Below, one piece after another: positions 8,974-22,381 of a stretch of DNA of 64,000 nt (the stretch's first letter is position 1; each line of letters opens with the position of its first letter). Origin of the DNA: Nevskiaceae bacterium (GTDB lineage: Bacteria; Pseudomonadota; Gammaproteobacteria; Nevskiales; Nevskiaceae); NCBI GenBank assembly GCA_021731445.1, contig JAKFXK010000029.1, positions 1-64,000 on the forward strand, given 5' to 3'. The notes beneath the pieces were generated by a model, which was given only the letters and a program-made list of their open reading frames with translations, made no database searches and was not told where the DNA came from. The position numbers and the translations under genes are program-made.

Positions 8974-9246
8974 CTAGGGCGTGTCATCAATTGGACAGTC
9001 GCAGCGGCCGAAGGCTGTTTTGGGGCAGCGCAAGGCGGCGAGTGAGGGGAATAGTGGTTCTATTTCCCTCACTGGCCAACGCAGCGATGCCCCAAAACAG
9101 TCCGGCCCCACAGGGTTGCGGCCAAAACCGCGCATTGCGGCGTCACAAGGCTTGCGAATGGAACAACCATTCGCTGCGCCCCGTTCCTTGCACTGCGCGG
9201 TTTTGACCCGCAACGCTGCGATTGCCCAGTTGATGACACGCCCTAG
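8974..9246. repeat. Element E1: MITE-like, multiply self-complementary element (core 8978-9242, 265 bp) flanked by CTAG on both sides
   Basis: Terminal arms GGCGTGTCATCAATTGGACAGTCGCAGCG (8978-9006) and 9214-9242 are complementary at 26/29 positions; internal hairpins 9013-9027/9088-9100, 9042-9072, 9115-9134/9194-9214, 9154-9174; related to 18910-19173. Confidence 0.85.
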
Positions 9247-13068: not shown

Positions 13069-13144
13069 GCTCAAAGAATAACCGAGGCCCGTCATGCCCG
13101 CGTGCATGGTCAGCGATGCGCTTCACCCCCTAGAATCGCGATCT

Positions 13145-15508
13145 ATGACCCTTCCTGCGGCTGCCCACTTCCAAAAGCATTGTCCCGGCTGTTTTCAGCT
13201 CAAGGGCGGTGTGGCGATCTGTCCGCACTGTGGCTATGACGAGTCGACGCAGCGCTCGCCGCTGTTCCTGCCGCACGGCACCATCCTCGGCGGGCAGTAC
13301 CGCACCGGCCGCGTGCTGGGCCGCCCCGGCGGCTTCGGCATCACCTATCTCGGCTGGGATGTGAACCTGCAACAGCGGGTGGCGATCAAGGAATACCTGC
13401 CGCGCGAGATCGCGCAGCGCATGCCCAACTCGCTGGAGGTGGATGTCCACACCACCGACGACAGGCGCGGCTTCGAGTTCGGCAAGGAGCAGTTCCTGCG
13501 CGAGGCGCGCATCGTCGCCAAGCTCGACCACGGCAACATCGTCCGCGTCCGCAACTTCTTCAATGCCAATTCCACCGCCTATCTGGTGATGGACTACTAC
13601 GAGGGCATGTCGCTCGGCGACTATCTGTCGAGTGTGCGCAACAAGCTCGAACCCGAACTCGCAGTGCCCCTGGTCAAGCCCATTCTCGAAGGCTTGCAGT
13701 ACGTGCATGAGCGCGGACTCGTGCACCGTGACCTGAAACCCCACAACGTCTACCTCGCCGCCATCGGCAGGCCCATCGTGCTTGATTTCGGTGCCGCGCG
13801 GCAGGCTGCGGGAGACCGTGTGCAGAGTCTCTCGGTGGTGCTGACCGAGGGCTATGCGCCGCTTGAGCAGTACCAGCGCCGCGCCGTGCAGGGGCCGTGG
13901 ACGGATGTCTACGGCGTCGCTGCCACGCTCTACCGAATGATTACCGGTGCCGCGCCGCCCATCGCGCTCGACCGCATCGGCCGCGATCCGGTGGAAGACG
14001 GCGGCTGGTCGGCAGTGCCAGCCGCACTGGTGCCAGCCTTGCGCATGGCATTGGCGGTGCGGCCATCGGATCGCTACCAGAGCGCCATCGAGTTTCGGGC
14101 GGCGCTGGATCGCTATCTGGGCGGTGTCTCCAGCGTGCATCAGCCGACCAGCATCCTGCCGATCAACATGCCGTTCGTGCCGCCGATTGCCGAGCCGCCG
14201 CCAACGGGGCGTTCCCACTCCGCACCCCTGACGGTCGCCGCCACCACGGACTCACAGCCCACCGTGACGGCGCCGCCACGCCCTTCCATCGTGGATCACA
14301 TAGTGGCTGCGGCCGCACAGAATCCGCCACTGCCCGTTGCCCAAGCCGCAGCTGAGACGAAAGCCCCGGTCGAGTCCCCCAACCCCGTGCTGTCGCTGCC
14401 CCAGGTGACGCCGCTACCGCCGCTGATGGCCCCGGCAATGCCGGCGATGCACAACGCGCTCGGTGTGCTGGCGACATCGCCCGCTGGTCGCACAGAGCGG
14501 CTGCTGCCGGGTGCCACACTGCACCGCCGCGTCGCCCAATACACCGCACCGCCACCGCCGGTGCGTAAGCCCATGCATGCCGTCGGTCCCTGGGTGCTGG
14601 TGCTGGTGGCTGCGCTGGTGGTTGGCTATGTGCTGCTGAATGCGCCGGAGGTGCGCGAACGCGCTGCCGCCGCAGACGTACCCGCAACCGCAGCGGTGAC
14701 GCCCCCTCCTGCCATGGTGCCGGCCGCAGTGCTTCCCAGTGCGGTGCTGCCTGCCCTGCTGCCTGCGCTGGTCGCACTGCCAGGCGGCTCGGTGCAGCTG
14801 CAGGAAGCCCGCAACGATGGCGGTGGTGCGCGCGCAGCGCGCATCAGCCCGCTGAAAATGGGGCGCACCGAAGTGACGGTGGCCGAGTTCGGCGATTTCG
14901 TGCAACGCACCGGCTACGACAACCCGCGCTGGCAGAACTATCCCTGCGAATCCGCCGGTGGTCGCCTGCCGGACTGGAACAACCCCGGCTATGCGCAAGG
15001 CGACAACTCGCCTGTGGTCTGCATCAGCTGGGCGGATGCCAATGCCTACACGCAATGGCTGACGCGCGAAACCGGCTTGGGCTACCGCCTGCCGACCGAA
15101 GCCGAATGGGAATATGCCGCGCGGGCCGGCACCAGTGGCAGGCACTGGTGGGGCAATGGCTTCGACTCTGGCATGGCGGCCTGCCAGAGCTGCCCACCAA
15201 AAGTGCCGACCCAGCCCTCTGCCGTCGCCTCTTTCCCAGCCAATCCCTTCGGCCTGTTTGAAACGCTCGGCAATGTCCGCGAATGGACCTGTTCGGCCTA
15301 CGACCGCTACAGCAGCACGGCCGCCGAGCGCTGCAGCGTGGTCGACGAGATGCAGCGTGTGGCGGTGCGTGGCGGCTCCTGGCTGCAAGGGGTCGAGGCG
15401 CTGTCCGCCGATTACCGCGAGGCGTACGAGCCGTACCGGCGCAATGTCTGGACTGGCTTCCGCGTCGTGCAGGATGGCAGCCGTTCCGCACCGCCACTGA
15501 CCCCCTGA
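13145..15508 (+). CDS. Zinc-ribbon / Ser-Thr protein kinase / transmembrane / SUMF1 (formylglycine-generating enzyme-like) fusion protein
   Basis: [85 protein letters not shown]-terminal [14 protein letters not shown]...[15 protein letters not shown]...VRGGSW...WTGFRVV. Confidence 0.9.
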
Positions 15509-15560: not shown

Positions 15561-17699
15561 ATGTCCGAACGCGCCACCGCGAACTACCAAAAGCATTGTC
15601 CCGGCTGCTTCCGCCGCAAGGACAATCATCCCGTCTGTCCCCATTGCGGCTACGACGAGGCAGCCTCGCGCAGCCCGCTGTTCCTGCCGCATGGTGCGGT
15701 GCTCGCGGGCCAGTACCGGGTGGGCAAGGTGCTGGGGCGTCCCGGCGGATTCGGCATCACCTATCTCGGCTGGGACATCTACCTGCAGCAGAAGGTGGCG
15801 ATCAAGGAATACCTGCCGCCGGAGATCGCCGCGCGCATCCCCGAAAGCCAGGACATCACCGTCCACACCCAGCACGACCGCAAGAGCTTCGAGAACGGCA
15901 AGGAACAGTTTCTGAAGGAGGCGCGCATCGTAGCCAGGCTGGATCACCCCAATGTGGTGCGCGTGCGGGGCTTCTTCAATGCCAACGACACCGCTTACAT
16001 GGTGATGGACTACTACGACGGCATGAGTCTCGATGCCTACTTTGGCCAGGTGAAGCCGGTGCTGGAGCCGGTGATCGCAAGCTCGCTGATGCAGATGGTG
16101 CTCGATGGCCTCGACTACGTTCACCACCACGGCGTCGTGCACCGCGACATGAAGCCGCACAACATCTACATCGCCGCCGTCGGCAAGCCGATCATCCTGG
16201 ATTTCGGTGCGGCGCGGCAGGCGCTGGCCGATGGCAGCCAGCGTTCGATCTCGGTGGTGCTGACCGAGGGCTATGCGCCGCTGGAGCAGTACCAGCGCCA
16301 CGGCACCCAGGGCCCATGGACCGATGTCTACGGCGTCGCTGCGACGCTCTACCGGATGATCACGGGCAAGCCGCCGATGATCGCGTTCGACCGCATCCAC
16401 CACGATCAGCTCGAGATCGACGACTACATCGGCCTGCCCGAGGCGCTCAAGCCGGTGTTGCGCAAGGCGCTGGCGATCAAGGCCGAAGACCGTTACCAGA
16501 CGGCCGCCGCCTTCAAGCTGGCGCTGGCCATTGCGATGGGCCCGGCGGAGTCGAATGCGCCGATGCCCAGCAAGGATGCCGCCATGGTGAGCCAGATGGG
16601 ACAGGCCAGACCTTCGCCCACTCCCTTGCCCAGCGAGTTGCTGCGCGACACCACCCGCCGCCACGGCAGCCTGCCGGCGGCGATTGAAAATGCCATTACC
16701 AAACCGGCTGTACCGCTGCCGTTCCTTACTCCGGTACTGGCTGTGCAAGCCGCAGCACCCTCGTCACCGGCAGCTGCGCTGCCCTCGCTGCCGGCAGCGC
16801 GGCCATCCGTCTCCCCGTCGGGCGATACCGGCTACCGCACCAGTACGGCCACCGCGCCCAAGCGCCGTCCACAGCTACTGCTGCCCGCACTGGGCTTGGC
16901 CGTCGTCGTCGTCGCTGGCCTCTTTTTGCTGCGGGAGCCTGCCGAGAAGTCGACTGTGGCCGCCAGGCCGGAGCAGCCTGCCAGCACGCCGACAACACCC
17001 CCGCGCAAGACCGCCACCGCCTTGCCGCCAGCGGCGATGCCGGAACTGGCCGAAGTGCCTGCGGGGGTCCGCAACGATGTCGACTACCGCGCCATGCGCA
17101 TCGGCAGGAGCGAGGTGACGGTAGGCCAGTTCCATCATTTCGTGGAGCGTGCCGGGTATGGCAACCCGGCCTGGGTAACCGAACCCTGTGAGGGAGCTTC
17201 CGGCAACTGGGACAACCCTGGCTATTCGCAGACCGACAGCCATCCGGTGGTATGTGTCGACTGGGAAGACGCGCGCCGCTATGCCGAGTGGCTGTCTCAG
17301 GAAACCGGCCGCAAGTTCCGCCTGCCCACCGACCGCGAATGGGAATACGCCGCCGCTGCCGGCAGCAGCAGCCGCTACTGGTGGGGCAATGCCATCAACG
17401 AGAGCAATGCCGTCTGTGCCGATTGCAGCCGCCAGATCCCCGGCAAGCCCTGGATCGTCGCCAGCCTGGGCAGCAATGCCTGGGGCCTGTTCGGCACCGC
17501 CAGCAACGTCCGCGAGTGGAGCTGTTCGGCGCTGCCGCAGGGCAACTGCGCTGCCCCGGCCGATACCGGTGTGCGCATCACCCGGGGTGGTTCCTGGCGT
17601 GACCCGACCTCAGCCCTGCAGACCGATTTTCGTGCCACGCTGGCCAAGGCCCAGCGCAATGCCTGGACCGGTTTCCGGGTGGTCGAAGAGCTGCCGTAG
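15561..17699 (+). CDS. Paralogous zinc-ribbon / Ser-Thr protein kinase / transmembrane / SUMF1 fusion protein
   Basis: [56 protein letters not shown]-terminal GRSEVTVGQFHHFV...RLPTDREWEYAAAAG...ITRGGSW...WTGFRVV. Confidence 0.9.
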   Translation: MSERATANYQKHCPGCFRRKDNHPVCPHCGYDEAASRSPLFLPHGAVLAGQYRVGKVLGRPGGFGITYLGWDIYLQQKVAIKEYLPPEIAARIPESQDITVHTQHDRKSFENGKEQFLKEARIVARLDHPNVVRVRGFFNANDTAYMVMDYYDGMSLDAYFGQVKPVLEPVIASSLMQMVLDGLDYVHHHGVVHRDMKPHNIYIAAVGKPIILDFGAARQALADGSQRSISVVLTEGYAPLEQYQRHGTQGPWTDVYGVAATLYRMITGKPPMIAFDRIHHDQLEIDDYIGLPEALKPVLRKALAIKAEDRYQTAAAFKLALAIAMGPAESNAPMPSKDAAMVSQMGQARPSPTPLPSELLRDTTRRHGSLPAAIENAITKPAVPLPFLTPVLAVQAAAPSSPAAALPSLPAARPSVSPSGDTGYRTSTATAPKRRPQLLLPALGLAVVVVAGLFLLREPAEKSTVAARPEQPASTPTTPPRKTATALPPAAMPELAEVPAGVRNDVDYRAMRIGRSEVTVGQFHHFVERAGYGNPAWVTEPCEGASGNWDNPGYSQTDSHPVVCVDWEDARRYAEWLSQETGRKFRLPTDREWEYAAAAGSSSRYWWGNAINESNAVCADCSRQIPGKPWIVASLGSNAWGLFGTASNVREWSCSALPQGNCAAPADTGVRITRGGSWRDPTSALQTDFRATLAKAQRNAWTGFRVVEELP

Positions 17700-17714: not shown

Positions 17715-18899
17715 CTACTTCGCGCGCAAGGCCTCGACCACCGGTTGCCGCGCCGCTTTCAAGGCGGGTGGCAGGCCACCCAGCAGGCCGATGGCCAGCG
17801 CCCAGGACAGACCTTTTTCCATCAGCGCGGGTGTGACCGCAAAGTTGAACGCCACTTGGGTGAAGTTGCTGCCAAGCGTGGAGACGCTCATGTTGTTGAA
17901 CAGCACATAGGCGATCAGCCCGCCGAGTACGCCGCCGGCGAGCGCCAGCAGCATCGCCTCCGCCAGCACCGACAGCACCACCGGCAGACCGCCAAAGCCG
18001 ATCGCGCGCAGGGTGGCGATTTCCACCTGCCGGGTCGAAACCGCCGAGTACATGCTGTTGAGCGCGCCGAACAGGGCACCGATGGCCATGATCGCAGCCA
18101 CCACCCCGGTCAGCAGGCCGATCTGCTCGGTGAACTGCTTGGACTGGCTGGCGAAGTATTCGAGTTCCGGCATCGCATCCACCTGCAGGCGCGGGTCGGC
18201 CTTGACCGCGGCCTTGATAGTGTCGATGGCTGTGGCCGAAGCCATCTGGGCCACCAGTGACGATGCCGAGCTGCCACGGCCAAAGGCCGAACGGGCGGTG
18301 TCGGCGTCCGTCCACAACTCCGATTCGTGCGCATCGCCATCCGAGACGAAAGTGCCGACCACCGTCCACTCCGAGCCACGGAACTTCAGTGTCGCGCCCA
18401 GTTTGACGCCCTCGAACTGCCGGGCCGCACTCTGGCCGACCGTGATCTCGCGCAGGCCGGGCGTGAACCACCGGCCCTCAACCAGTCTGACCTCCGGCCT
18501 CAGCTTCAGGCCCGCCGGTTCGACCCCGCGCAGCGACACGTTGACATCCGCGCGCTGCGCGCCGTTGCCACGCCTGAGTTCGGTGATCACCACCACCTCG
18601 GCGGAGGCGAGCGGTCTGCCATCGGCATCGCGCACGATGCCCGGCAGCTCCCGCAGCACCGGCACGATGTCGGGCACCAGTACCGATGAAAGCTCGGCCG
18701 TGACCCCAGCGGAGAGAAACATCACGCGGTCGGCCTTGCCGGTGGCTTTCAGCGTCGCGCCAAAGCCCTGCGCCATGGCGAGCAGCGCCACCAGCACTGC
18801 CACCACACCGGCAATGCCGATGACGATGACCAGCGAGGAACCGGCCCGCTGGGGTACCGCGCGCAGGTTCATCCAGATGATGGCGAAAATTTGTTTCAT
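17715..18899 (-). CDS. FtsX/MacB-type ABC transporter permease
   Basis: N-terminal TM then periplasmic domain; VVAAIMAIGALFGALNSMYSAVSTRQVEIATLRAIGFGGLPVVLSVLAEAMLLALAGGVLGG. Confidence 0.85.
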   Translation of the reverse strand: MKQIFAIIWMNLRAVPQRAGSSLVIVIGIAGVVAVLVALLAMAQGFGATLKATGKADRVMFLSAGVTAELSSVLVPDIVPVLRELPGIVRDADGRPLASAEVVVITELRRGNGAQRADVNVSLRGVEPAGLKLRPEVRLVEGRWFTPGLREITVGQSAARQFEGVKLGATLKFRGSEWTVVGTFVSDGDAHESELWTDADTARSAFGRGSSASSLVAQMASATAIDTIKAAVKADPRLQVDAMPELEYFASQSKQFTEQIGLLTGVVAAIMAIGALFGALNSMYSAVSTRQVEIATLRAIGFGGLPVVLSVLAEAMLLALAGGVLGGLIAYVLFNNMSVSTLGSNFTQVAFNFAVTPALMEKGLSWALAIGLLGGLPPALKAARQPVVEALRAK

Positions 18900-18905
18900 G
18901 GTGCG

Positions 18906-19177
18906 TTAGGGCCTGTACACAAATGGAACATCGCAGCGGCGGAAGGCTGTTTTTGGGCAGTGCGACGAACGAGGCGCAGTCAATGGTTGTTCCATTGGCA
19001 AGCCTTGTGAAGAAGCAATGCCCAAAAACAGTCCCGCCCCGGAGGGTTGCGGCCAAAAAGCCGCCGGACTTCGTTGCGGCTCTTGGCTGTGGAACAACCA
19101 CAGCCAGCGGCCCGCGCCTCGCCGGGCGGCTTTTTGACTCGCAACGCTGAGATGTTCCATTTGTGTACAGGCCCTAG
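18906..19177. repeat. Element E2: MITE-like, multiply self-complementary element (core 18910-19173, 264 bp) flanked by TTAG (left) and CTAG (right)
   Basis: Terminal arms GGCCTGTACACAAATGGAACATCGCAGCG (18910-18938) and 19145-19173 complementary at 28/29 positions; hairpins 18947-18959/19019-19031, 18981-18997, 19046-19065/19125-19145, 19085-19105; same architecture as E1. Confidence 0.85.
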
Positions 19178-20334
19178 CGTCCTGACAAGCCATCGACGAT
19201 CGAAAGTCGCATCGCCCTCAAGGCAGGTGGCAAGCCAACCAGAAAGCCCACACCAAACATGCTGGCAAAGGCGATCTGCCAGACCTGCACACTGGCGGTG
19301 ATGGGCGGGAACTGCGTCGGCGCATGGGCCAGGCCCTCCATCACTAATGCCGCCAGCCCCATCCCCAGCAGACCGCCGAGCACCGAGATCAGCATTGATT
19401 CGGCGATCACCAGCAGCAGCAGCATGTGGTTGCTGAAGCCGAGTGTTTTCAGTACCGCGAGTTCCGGGATGCGCTCGCGCACGGCCTGGCTCATGGTGTT
19501 GCCGGTAAGCATCAGGATGGTGAAAAACACCGCGCCAAGAATGGCGTTCAGGATCAGCGAGAGATTGCCGATCTGCCGCACGAAGTTGAGTTGGAACTCC
19601 TTCTCGGTCTGGGTCTTGGTCTCATCCGGCGAATTCTCGAACAGCACGTCGATGCTGCGGCTGATGGCCTCGGACTGGTTGGGGTCCTTTATCCGCACCA
19701 CGAAGATGCCAGCCGTGCCCTGGCCGTACTGGCGCGCCTCGTCGAAGTAGTCGTAGCGCAAGTACATATTGCCCATGCGCGGGCAGCTACCCTCGGTCAC
19801 ATCCTCGAAGATGCCAGCCAGCTCGAAGTTCCAGGCGCGGGTGCCATCCTTCAGCGGCCAGATCTGGCTCTTCAGCGGGATCGGGTCGCCGACTTTCCAG
19901 CCGAAGCGATCTGCCAGGCCACGCCCGGCGATGACGGCAGTGCGCGAGCTTTTCCAAGCCGTGGCCTGCCCGGCCGGCATCCGGCATTCGGTGAAGGTTT
20001 TCAGCCAGCGGTCGGGGTCCACCGCAAACTGCGGGAAGAAGTTTTTCTCGTCCTTGTAGATGCCGCCGAAAAACTGCGACCACGATATCTGCTCGATGCC
20101 GGGGATCGCCTCGATCTGTGACAGGTGCCGCATCGGCAGCGGCGAGGTGAACGACACCCGCGCCTGGGTGATGAGCAGGTTCGCCGACAGCCGCTGGCTG
20201 TCGCCGGAAAACAGCGAATTGGCCGCCTGCAACAGCCCCAGCAGCAGGAAGGCTGTGACCAGCGACAGCAGCGTGAGAATCGTGCGCGCCTTCTTGCGCC
20301 AGAGGGTGGCCCACAACAGCGGGAAATATTTCAT
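19174..20334 (-). CDS. FtsX/MacB-type ABC transporter permease
   Basis: MKYFPLLWATLWRKKARTILTLLSLVTAFLLLGLL; ERIPELAVLKTLGFSNHMLLLLVIAESMLISVLGGLLG. Confidence 0.85.
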   Translation of the reverse strand: MKYFPLLWATLWRKKARTILTLLSLVTAFLLLGLLQAANSLFSGDSQRLSANLLITQARVSFTSPLPMRHLSQIEAIPGIEQISWSQFFGGIYKDEKNFFPQFAVDPDRWLKTFTECRMPAGQATAWKSSRTAVIAGRGLADRFGWKVGDPIPLKSQIWPLKDGTRAWNFELAGIFEDVTEGSCPRMGNMYLRYDYFDEARQYGQGTAGIFVVRIKDPNQSEAISRSIDVLFENSPDETKTQTEKEFQLNFVRQIGNLSLILNAILGAVFFTILMLTGNTMSQAVRERIPELAVLKTLGFSNHMLLLLVIAESMLISVLGGLLGMGLAALVMEGLAHAPTQFPPITASVQVWQIAFASMFGVGFLVGLPPALRAMRLSIVDGLSGR

Positions 20335-20459: not shown

Positions 20460-21149
20460 TCAAGGCACTTCTCCGATTGCCACTGCGCCTTTATCCATAT
20501 GCACCTGATGCGTTGCGTACTCCGCCGCCTTCGGATCGTGCGTGACCATGATGATGGTCTTGCCGTGCTCGCGGTTGAGCGTCTGCAAGAGGCCTAGGAT
20601 TTCATCCGCCGTCCTGCGGTCGAGATCGCCCGTCGGTTCGTCGCAGACCAAGAGTGTCGGGTCGGCGACCAGTGCGCGGGCGATGGCGACGCGCTGCGCC
20701 TGCCCACCAGACAGCTCGTTGGGTTTGTGGCTGGCACGATCAGCCAGGCCCACCACAGTCAGCGCGATCCTGGCGCGTTGTGCGCGCTCTGCCCCGGAGA
20801 GATTGGTCAGCAGCAGCGGCAGCTCGACGTTTTTCTGCGCGGTGAGCATCGGCATCAGGTTGTAGAACTGGAACACGAAGCCGACATGCCGTGCGCGCCA
20901 GGCGGCGAGGGCGGAGGAGCCGAGATTGTCGATGCGCTGGCCATCCACCAGAACCTGTCCCGCAGTAGGCTGGTCGAGGCCGCCGATGAGATTGAGCAGC
21001 GTGGTCTTGCCAGAGCCGGATGGCCCCATGAGGGCGAGGAAATCGCCCTTGGCGACTTCGAGATCGAGTGCGGTCAGCACCTCCACCTTCTGCTTGCCGC
21101 GCGTGTAGGTCTTGCTGACCTGTTTGATCTCCACGATCGCCTTGCTCAT
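20460..21149 (-). CDS. LolD/MacB-type ABC transporter ATP-binding protein
   Basis: Walker [12 protein letters not shown], signature [16 protein letters not shown], Walker [13 protein letters not shown]. Confidence 0.95.
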
Positions 21150-22381
21150 CTGTTGCTCCCTTGCACATTCACCTTGCCTAAGTCGGCGAGCTTGCTGAAA
21201 TCGCCAACCGCCAGTGACTCGCCTCCGCTCAGGCCTTCGAGAATCGTCACTTCGCTGCCTTCGACGGCACCGGTCTTGACCGGCTGCCGTTTCACCGTGT
21301 CGCCGCTGACCACGAACACCACGTCACCATGGATCGCTTCGCTGGGGGCCAGCACGCGGCGTGCGACCACAGCTTGAGGGGCCGGTGTGTCATCTGCGAG
21401 AAAGCTGACGCGTGCACCCATGTCCGGCAGGATGCGTGCGTCGATGGGCTCGCCTGCCGCGCGGGCAAAGCCAACCCGCACCTTCACCGTCGCCTTGCTG
21501 CGGTCGGCGGTGGGGATGATGGCGATCAGCTCGCTCGGGATTTCCCAGTCGGGGTAGGCATTGAGCTTGGTGCGGGCCTTCTGCCCGGCACGCACCTTGT
21601 TGAGGAAGTTCTCGTTGACATCCACTTCCACTTCCAGCGAGTTCATGTCCACCAGGGTGCCCAGGCCGGTGCGGGTGCCGGCACCACCGGCGGAGAGCGG
21701 CGAGATCATCTCGCCGGGCTGCGCGTTCTTGATGGTGATCACGCCTGCAAACGGCGCGCGCACCACCGTGTCGTCGATGTTGCGGCGGGTCACGCCAAGC
21801 TGCTGCTGCGACACGCGCACGCCTTGCTCGGCGCTGGCAAGACGCGCCTTGAGCTGGCCGACGACGGTGTCGGCCAAGTCCGCAGCGGACTGCGGGATGA
21901 GCTTCTTGCCAACCAGGTCGCGGTTGCGCGCGGCATCACGCTCGGCATTGGCAAGCGAGACCCTGATCTCGGCCAGCTGTGCGCGTGCCTGCTCGATCTG
22001 GGCATTGCCGAGTGCGGCCTGCGCATCGAGATTGCTGGGGTCGAGCCGGGCCAGGATGTCGCCCTCGGCGACTTTCTGGCCCTCTTCAAAATTGATGGCG
22101 ATGACCTTGCCCGTCACCTTCGACGACACGGTTGCCTGGCGCCGAGCCACCACATAGCCGCTGGCATCGAGCACGGATCCAGACAGCGGCGCGCCGCCCT
22201 TCACCGTCGCCTGCACCAACCGCACCGGCACCCTGTCATCGGGCTTGAGAAAATAGGCGGCCGTGCCACCGGCAACCAGCAGCAGGCCGACGATCCAGGG
22301 CCATCTGTTGCTGCCGCGAGGGGTGAGATTGCCGCTACGGTCGATGGAGAGCTGGCGCAGCAGATCGGCTTGGGAGGACAT
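21146..22381 (-). CDS. HlyD/MacA-like periplasmic adaptor subunit
   Basis: SGYVVARRQATVSSKVTGKVIAINFEEGQKVAEGDILARLDPSNLDAQ; VVRAPFAGVITIKNAQPGEMISP; 4-bp overlap with the ATPase gene. Confidence 0.9.
   Translation of the reverse strand: MSSQADLLRQLSIDRSGNLTPRGSNRWPWIVGLLLVAGGTAAYFLKPDDRVPVRLVQATVKGGAPLSGSVLDASGYVVARRQATVSSKVTGKVIAINFEEGQKVAEGDILARLDPSNLDAQAALGNAQIEQARAQLAEIRVSLANAERDAARNRDLVGKKLIPQSAADLADTVVGQLKARLASAEQGVRVSQQQLGVTRRNIDDTVVRAPFAGVITIKNAQPGEMISPLSAGGAGTRTGLGTLVDMNSLEVEVDVNENFLNKVRAGQKARTKLNAYPDWEIPSELIAIIPTADRSKATVKVRVGFARAAGEPIDARILPDMGARVSFLADDTPAPQAVVARRVLAPSEAIHGDVVFVVSGDTVKRQPVKTGAVEGSEVTILEGLSGGESLAVGDFSKLADLGKVNVQGSNR

Follow-up and report, generated by a model that had tools for sequence, protein, structure and literature searches.

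The stretch of DNA analysed here (the window, 64,000 nucleotides from a Nevskiaceae bacterium) carries, between two ABC permease genes of one operon, a long palindromic element, E2, whose edge falls inside the stop codon of the upstream gene. This raises the question whether E2 created that stop codon and shortened the upstream permease, or entered a stop that already existed, and what the insertion means for the gene behind it. Both permease genes follow two further genes of the operon, one for an ABC ATPase and one for a HlyD-type fusion protein. The features of the operon and of E2 are listed in Table 1, together with a second member of the element family found in the window (E1).

Table 1. 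Coordinates in the window of E2, its parts, the surrounding operon and E1.
Feature	Position	Strand	Remarks
E2, palindromic element	18908..19175	-	268 bp; bounds from comparison of ~60 copies
E2 ends	18908..19175	-	5'-AGGGCCTGT...ACAGGCCCT-3'; insertion point YT|AR
E2 left outer arm	19151..19175	-	25 nt; perfect complement of 18908-18932
E2 right outer arm	18908..18932	-	25 nt; perfect complement of 19151-19175
E2 internal hairpin 1	19046..19145	-	Variable tip GGCTGTGGTTGTTCCACAGCC; consensus structure with two-sided changes
E2 small hairpin / connector	19039..19045	-	CCCTCCGGGG across its edges; columns among the best conserved in the family
E2 internal hairpin 2	18938..19038	-	GGGACTGTTTTTGGGCA...TGCCCAAAAACAGCCTTCC; consensus structure
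TAG stop of upstream permease	19174..19176	-	T from host, AG from element, judged by empty orthologous sites
AA displaced from original stop	18906..18907	-	T + AA would give TAA before insertion, given joining without duplication
Upstream ABC permease (permease 1)	19174..20334	-	386 aa; MacB_PCD + FtsX by Pfam; full length
Downstream ABC permease (permease 2)	17715..18899	-	394 aa; MacB_PCD + FtsX by Pfam; intact
ABC ATPase, same operon	20460..21149	-	Pfam ABC_tran
HlyD-type membrane fusion protein, same operon	21146..22381	-	Pfam HlyD_D23 + HlyD_3
E1, second family member	8976..9244	-	269 bp; ends AGGGCGTGTCATC

A preliminary description had placed the element exactly between two permease genes, with the upstream TAG lying in the CTAG at its boundary. 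Both statements were borne out by the sequence: E2 spans 18908-19175 if the terminal A..T is counted as element, its neighbours are both MacB_PCD/FtsX proteins, and permease 1 ends in ..DGLSGR followed by TAG at 19176-19174. The ATG of permease 2 was likewise found at 18899, though at a distance of 8 nt from the edge of E2 instead of the 10 bp from the element core given before; from stop to ATG the gap measures 274 nt, E2 included. The 21-mer CCTGTACACAAATGGAACATC, which forms the core of the inner arm, occurs twice in inverted orientation as compared with 0 occurrences expected in shuffles, and the fold energy of E2 departs strongly from that of shuffled sequence (z = -14.2 as RNA and -12.5 with DNA parameters). 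No promoter was detected in E2 and no operon-strand terminator within it. The covariance models of described structured RNA families (Rfam 15) gave no match in the window at or above gathering score, E2 itself yielding weak sub-threshold matches only. A 95-aa open reading frame that spans the whole of E2 and stops shortly ahead of the ATG of permease 2 was set aside as a product of chance, as open frames in 57 elements were no commoner than in simulated ones. Elsewhere in the window, 13094-15508 and 15561-17699 are tandem duplicate genes encoding a protein kinase fused to an FGE-sulfatase-type domain (DNA blocks 74-81% identical; gene 15561-17699 compared with Pfam).

The origin of the stop codon was evaluated in three congeners whose junction is empty (G002, G003 and G004). 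In all three the upstream permease stops at the same residue (..DGLSGR*), with TAG as the stop codon in two and TAA in one, and the downstream gene follows closely, the junction reading GGACGCTAG-CC-ATG in G003 (gap of 2 nt), GGCCGCTAG-10 nt-ATG in G002 and GGTCGATAA-13 nt-ATG in G004. The flanks of E2, when joined, read GGACGCT|AACGCACCATG, and the codon present before insertion was therefore most likely TAA, with the two genes 6 nt apart. Given that the element-free congeners share the end residue, E2 neither made the stop nor shortened permease 1. That E2 truncated or replaced the C-terminus of this protein, as had been proposed and as the TAG straddling the boundary might suggest, is refuted by the orthologs, and also by the joined flanks, which give TAA at the same place; we attach next to no likelihood to it. 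The related statement that E2 supplies the stop codon holds for the letters, as the bases AG come from the element, but not for the function, since any T|AR target in frame is a stop codon before the insertion. Comparison with orthologous operons, suggested earlier as a check on a disruptive role of the element, thus gave a divided outcome: the stop position is the same without E2, which speaks against such a role, whereas the spacing, about 6 nt before insertion and 2-13 nt in the congeners, has grown to 274 nt, in agreement with the view that E2 separates two genes that are otherwise tightly spaced (gaps of 2, 10 and 13 nt).

The tight spacing in the congeners suggests that the two permeases are translationally coupled there. 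The end of permease 1 contains a possible ribosome-binding sequence, AGGA, which now lies 268 nt farther from the start of permease 2, with no replacement. Permease 2 displays 78-79% identity to its congeneric counterparts (dN about 0.15), and both permeases are under equal purifying selection relative to the three congeners (dN 0.15-0.18, dS 0.54-0.65). This speaks against a decay of permease 2, although the insertion may be recent.

E2 is one of a family of palindromic elements of about 267-271 bp in Nevskiaceae. At least 24 loci, a minimum count, were found in this Stagnimonas genome, and the copies extracted from Stagnimonas and one other genus number about 60. Of 57 copies, 55 measured 267-271 bp, with arms of 24-26 bp and ends of the form AGRGNNTGT..ACANNCYCT, and all are built alike, from an outer stem, a pair of long hairpins and a small CCCTTCGGGG hairpin. 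Across 40 aligned copies 96.8% of cells paired, as opposed to 36-43% when the partners were slid. The hairpin tips behave as cassettes, the tip of hairpin 1 in E1 being the reverse complement of that of hairpin 2 in E2, which suggests that tips have been exchanged between arms. Arms of the GGGCCTGTTAAC type occur in several genera of the Nevskiaceae and rarely in one other family; they take the form of 267-bp elements, of longer forms (~48 bp larger) and of bare 55-bp stems. Two of the latter (L225 and L227, each at 1501-1555) retain nothing but the outer stem, closed by a loop of 3 nt, and look like elements from which both inner hairpins were removed by excision. In five copies (L013, L014, L015, L016 and L022) the base of hairpin 2 carries an extra nested hairpin (about GCGTTTGGCYTAAGCGGGCATGACATTGAGTCATGCCCGCTTAGGCCAAACGC), which looks like a separate small repeat inserting into the element. 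The GGGCCTGTTAACRCTA arm had no match in plasmid and viral collections, and in a wider sample of the class a strict two-arm pattern was present in 0 of 143 genomes, a result of little weight given that G000 itself fails this pattern. A match in the Lambdaproteobacteria (L122) has the core motif and no element with paired arms, and was set aside.

The outer arms diverge widely between copies, those of E1 and E2 included, yet always match each other within a copy. For pairs 10-22 of the outer stem the sequence is near random (1.52 bits per column), while 96.5% of the pairs are Watson-Crick, 1.4% G-T and 2.1% mismatched, and 222 two-sided changes compare with 5 one-sided ones. As selection at the RNA level would have left many G-T pairs, the matching of the arms appears to act at the level of DNA. 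The arms would be held identical either by one protein that recognises both ends or by copying from arm to arm, and the data fit both. Template switching is described in one account (PMC8604942) as homogenising the arms of inverted repeats.

Near-identical copies in different flanks (L079/L084, L074/L080 and L061/L068), together with empty orthologous sites in relatives, indicate that the element is mobile. Outside the terminal A..T the flanks display a palindromic CT|AG preference, and direct repeats of 1-12 nt were not found there above the level of shuffled pairing. The inner A and T vary only as complementary pairs, whereas the outer T and A vary freely, and A..T therefore belongs to the element. 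The element seems to join CT|AG without any duplication beyond TA, a conclusion that rests on ~24 non-TA sites, since at TA targets duplication of TA and no duplication yield the identical joined sequence. For two elements (L086 and L070), comparison with empty relatives places the insertion a few codons into the gene that follows, past its original 5' end, and the start of these genes must accordingly have changed.

In 25 of the 57 Stagnimonas elements for which both neighbours were called, the boundary fell in the stop codon of a neighbour. Among elements at YTAR sites this was the case for 24 of 38, while in the same sequence stops accounted for 24.6% of noncoding YTAR sites and 33.7% of CTAG sites (p = 5e-7 and p = 2e-4, respectively); the counts derive from a home-made gene caller, which was also used for the null. 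Consistent results were obtained in other genera, with 9 of 15 elements in a stop codon. In G034, a genome of another genus, the stop codon of the permease 1 ortholog is occupied by an element with a different core and different arms, for which G022 provides the empty comparison. This insertion is independent of that of E2 at the same operon junction. Considering the tens of copies in each genome and the large number of genomes, we regard it as a mild coincidence and do not read it as a sign of function.

We consider it highly probable that E2 is a mobile, non-coding, four-armed palindrome that inserted in an existing stop codon, rebuilt it, displaced permease 2 and was tolerated. E2 would have entered between T and A of the stop of the upstream permease, likely a TAA, and the combination of a YT|AR target with an element starting in AG would have remade the stop as TAG in place, leaving the upstream protein unaltered, as the comparison with the congeners shows. 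The downstream permease would thereby have been shifted from about 6 nt to 274 nt past the stop. With 268 bp of very stable structure between the genes, short-range translational coupling would be lost and initiation of permease 2 would have to become independent. The insertion would have been tolerated because both reading frames were preserved. The surplus of stop codons in the family as a whole would result from the CT|AG target preference combined with purging of insertions in coding sequence.

The very stable fold of E2 would also suit a regulatory RNA element that tunes the ratio of the two permeases through attenuation, RNase III processing or mRNA stabilisation. In Stagnimonas, elements in tandem contexts lie along transcription in 29 of 36 cases (29:7; p = 3e-4), and the element of G034 occupies the same junction. 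We nevertheless hold this reading to be highly improbable, given that the element is absent in all congeners and in nearly all orthologous operons, that other copies are flanked by unrelated genes, that orientable tandem copies in other genera run opposite to transcription (0 of 4 along), and that the changes in the outer arms avoid G-T pairs, unlike those expected under RNA-level selection; the absence of an Rfam family and of an operon-strand terminator within the element points in the same direction. If E2 is a mobile palindrome, the question becomes what moves it. As a short non-coding element with terminal inverted repeats it fits the description of a MITE, and it could be a classical one, moved in trans by a TA-duplicating DDE transposase (IS630-like or IS5-like) with the flanking TA as target-site duplication: TA is found on both sides of 39 of 65 extracted copies, the motif at its ends, GRGNNTGT, is similar to the termini of a DDE element in G034 (GAGGCTGTGTG), and the coding capacity is no greater than chance. 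The A and T beside the stem act as part of the palindrome, however, flank pairs such as GA..TA and TA..TC do not match TA duplication, and the supposed binding region in the arms is the least conserved part of the element. Further, DDE_Tnp_1 was missing from G000, G003 and G004 (less telling for G000, which is 87% complete as compared with 99% for G003) and DDE_3 from five Stagnimonas genomes, and a survey of 85 genomes from the order revealed no autonomous insertion sequence with the ends of the element (GGGCCTGTTAAC). Transposases of the IS5/IS4 and IS630 types were rejected as mobiliser, being absent from several element-bearing genomes; such insertion sequences as are present have other ends. 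A DDE-mobilised MITE thus strikes us as rather doubtful.

Elements with IS200/IS605-type chemistry insert without target duplication. The joining mode found here would fit this chemistry, and a REP/BIME-type element moved by a RAYT (Y1 HUH) transposase would moreover find at least one Y1_Tnp gene in each genome of the group. REP ends are also reported to furnish adjacent ORFs with TAG stop codons (PMC3733652). Against this stands that none of 12 Y1_Tnp loci was flanked by copies of the element, the repeats beside these genes, where present, being other sequences (GTAGGAGCGGGC.., GTAGGGTGGGC.., AATAATAGGGGACAGACC..) without the element ends, that the Y1 genes differ between congeners, and that the element, with a length of about 267 bp and about ten times REP size, carries no GTAG (or CGTC) tag beside a hairpin of 20-40 bp; mobilisation by RAYT is in our view decidedly improbable. 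RAYT genes flanked by classical GTAG-type repeats (GTAGGAGCGGGCTTGCCCGCGA, GTAGGGTGGGC) were observed at the Y1 gene of Stagnimonas aquatica (L200) and at L199, L205 and L208 in G034, and these repeats are a system separate from the E2 family. For Y2_Tnp (IS91 / rolling-circle) no match was obtained in 10 genomes, the same search giving none in control genomes either. As a further, unlikely possibility, the family may form a class of palindromic mobile DNA in its own right, with a recombinase that recognises structure, such as an extruded four-armed cruciform or a single-stranded fold, instead of arm sequence, and joins the element at CT|AG without duplication. If true, structure recognition would account for the free drift of the arm sequences and for the constancy of pairing, length and architecture from genus to genus.

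Palindromic repeats that supply TAG have been described before among REPs, and we view the E2 family as a variant of this known kind of small palindromic mobile element. Like REP, BIME and REPIN sequences of the GTAG superfamily (PMC3733652), the element is palindromic, intergenic, present in multiple copies and often located by gene ends, and alternative complementary stem residues are known from REP sub-families as well (PMC3733652). It differs from them in its symmetrical outer stem within about 267 bp, where a REP is a GTAG-tagged hairpin of 20-40 bp, in the other repeats carried by the Y1 genes here, and in the rarity of G-T in the outer stem, GT pairing being frequent in REPs (PMC3733652). 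With bacterial MITEs (NEMIS/Correia, ERIC, RUP, Nezha, YPAL) it has in common a size in the range of 70-300 bp, inverted non-coding structure with TA ends, insertion beside genes and strong secondary structure; Correia/NEMIS, ERIC and RUP were set beside the E2 family by their described features only. In contrast to these MITEs, its arms diverge almost freely and stay matched, no cognate insertion sequence was found, duplication is not demonstrable at non-TA targets, length is near constant across genera, and there are two internal hairpins with exchangeable tips. The TIR repeats of TIRtrons and TIRYTs (PMC3733652) are similar as moderately abundant long inverted repeats in Gammaproteobacteria, e.g. 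in Stenotrophomonas, but TIRs flank Y1 transposase genes, while the element ends flanked no Y1 gene examined. The QMITEs of Coxiella are also gammaproteobacterial MITEs, with one case near a gene 3' end with an adjoining stop codon according to the available part of their description (PMC5896051); compared by description, they differ from E2 in that this part reports no arm divergence with kept pairing.

These findings correct the natural misreading that E2 created the stop codon at its edge. They further point to a rule for harmless insertion in dense operons: an element starting in AG turns any in-frame T|AA or T|AG into TAG, and a T|A target would therefore always leave the stop codon rebuilt. 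The family also provides natural insertions by the dozen, with empty orthologous sites for comparison, in which to study how large structured inserts between co-translated genes are tolerated. Its matched yet divergent arms, moreover, raise the testable question whether long inverted repeats are kept paired by enzyme recognition or by copying between the arms.
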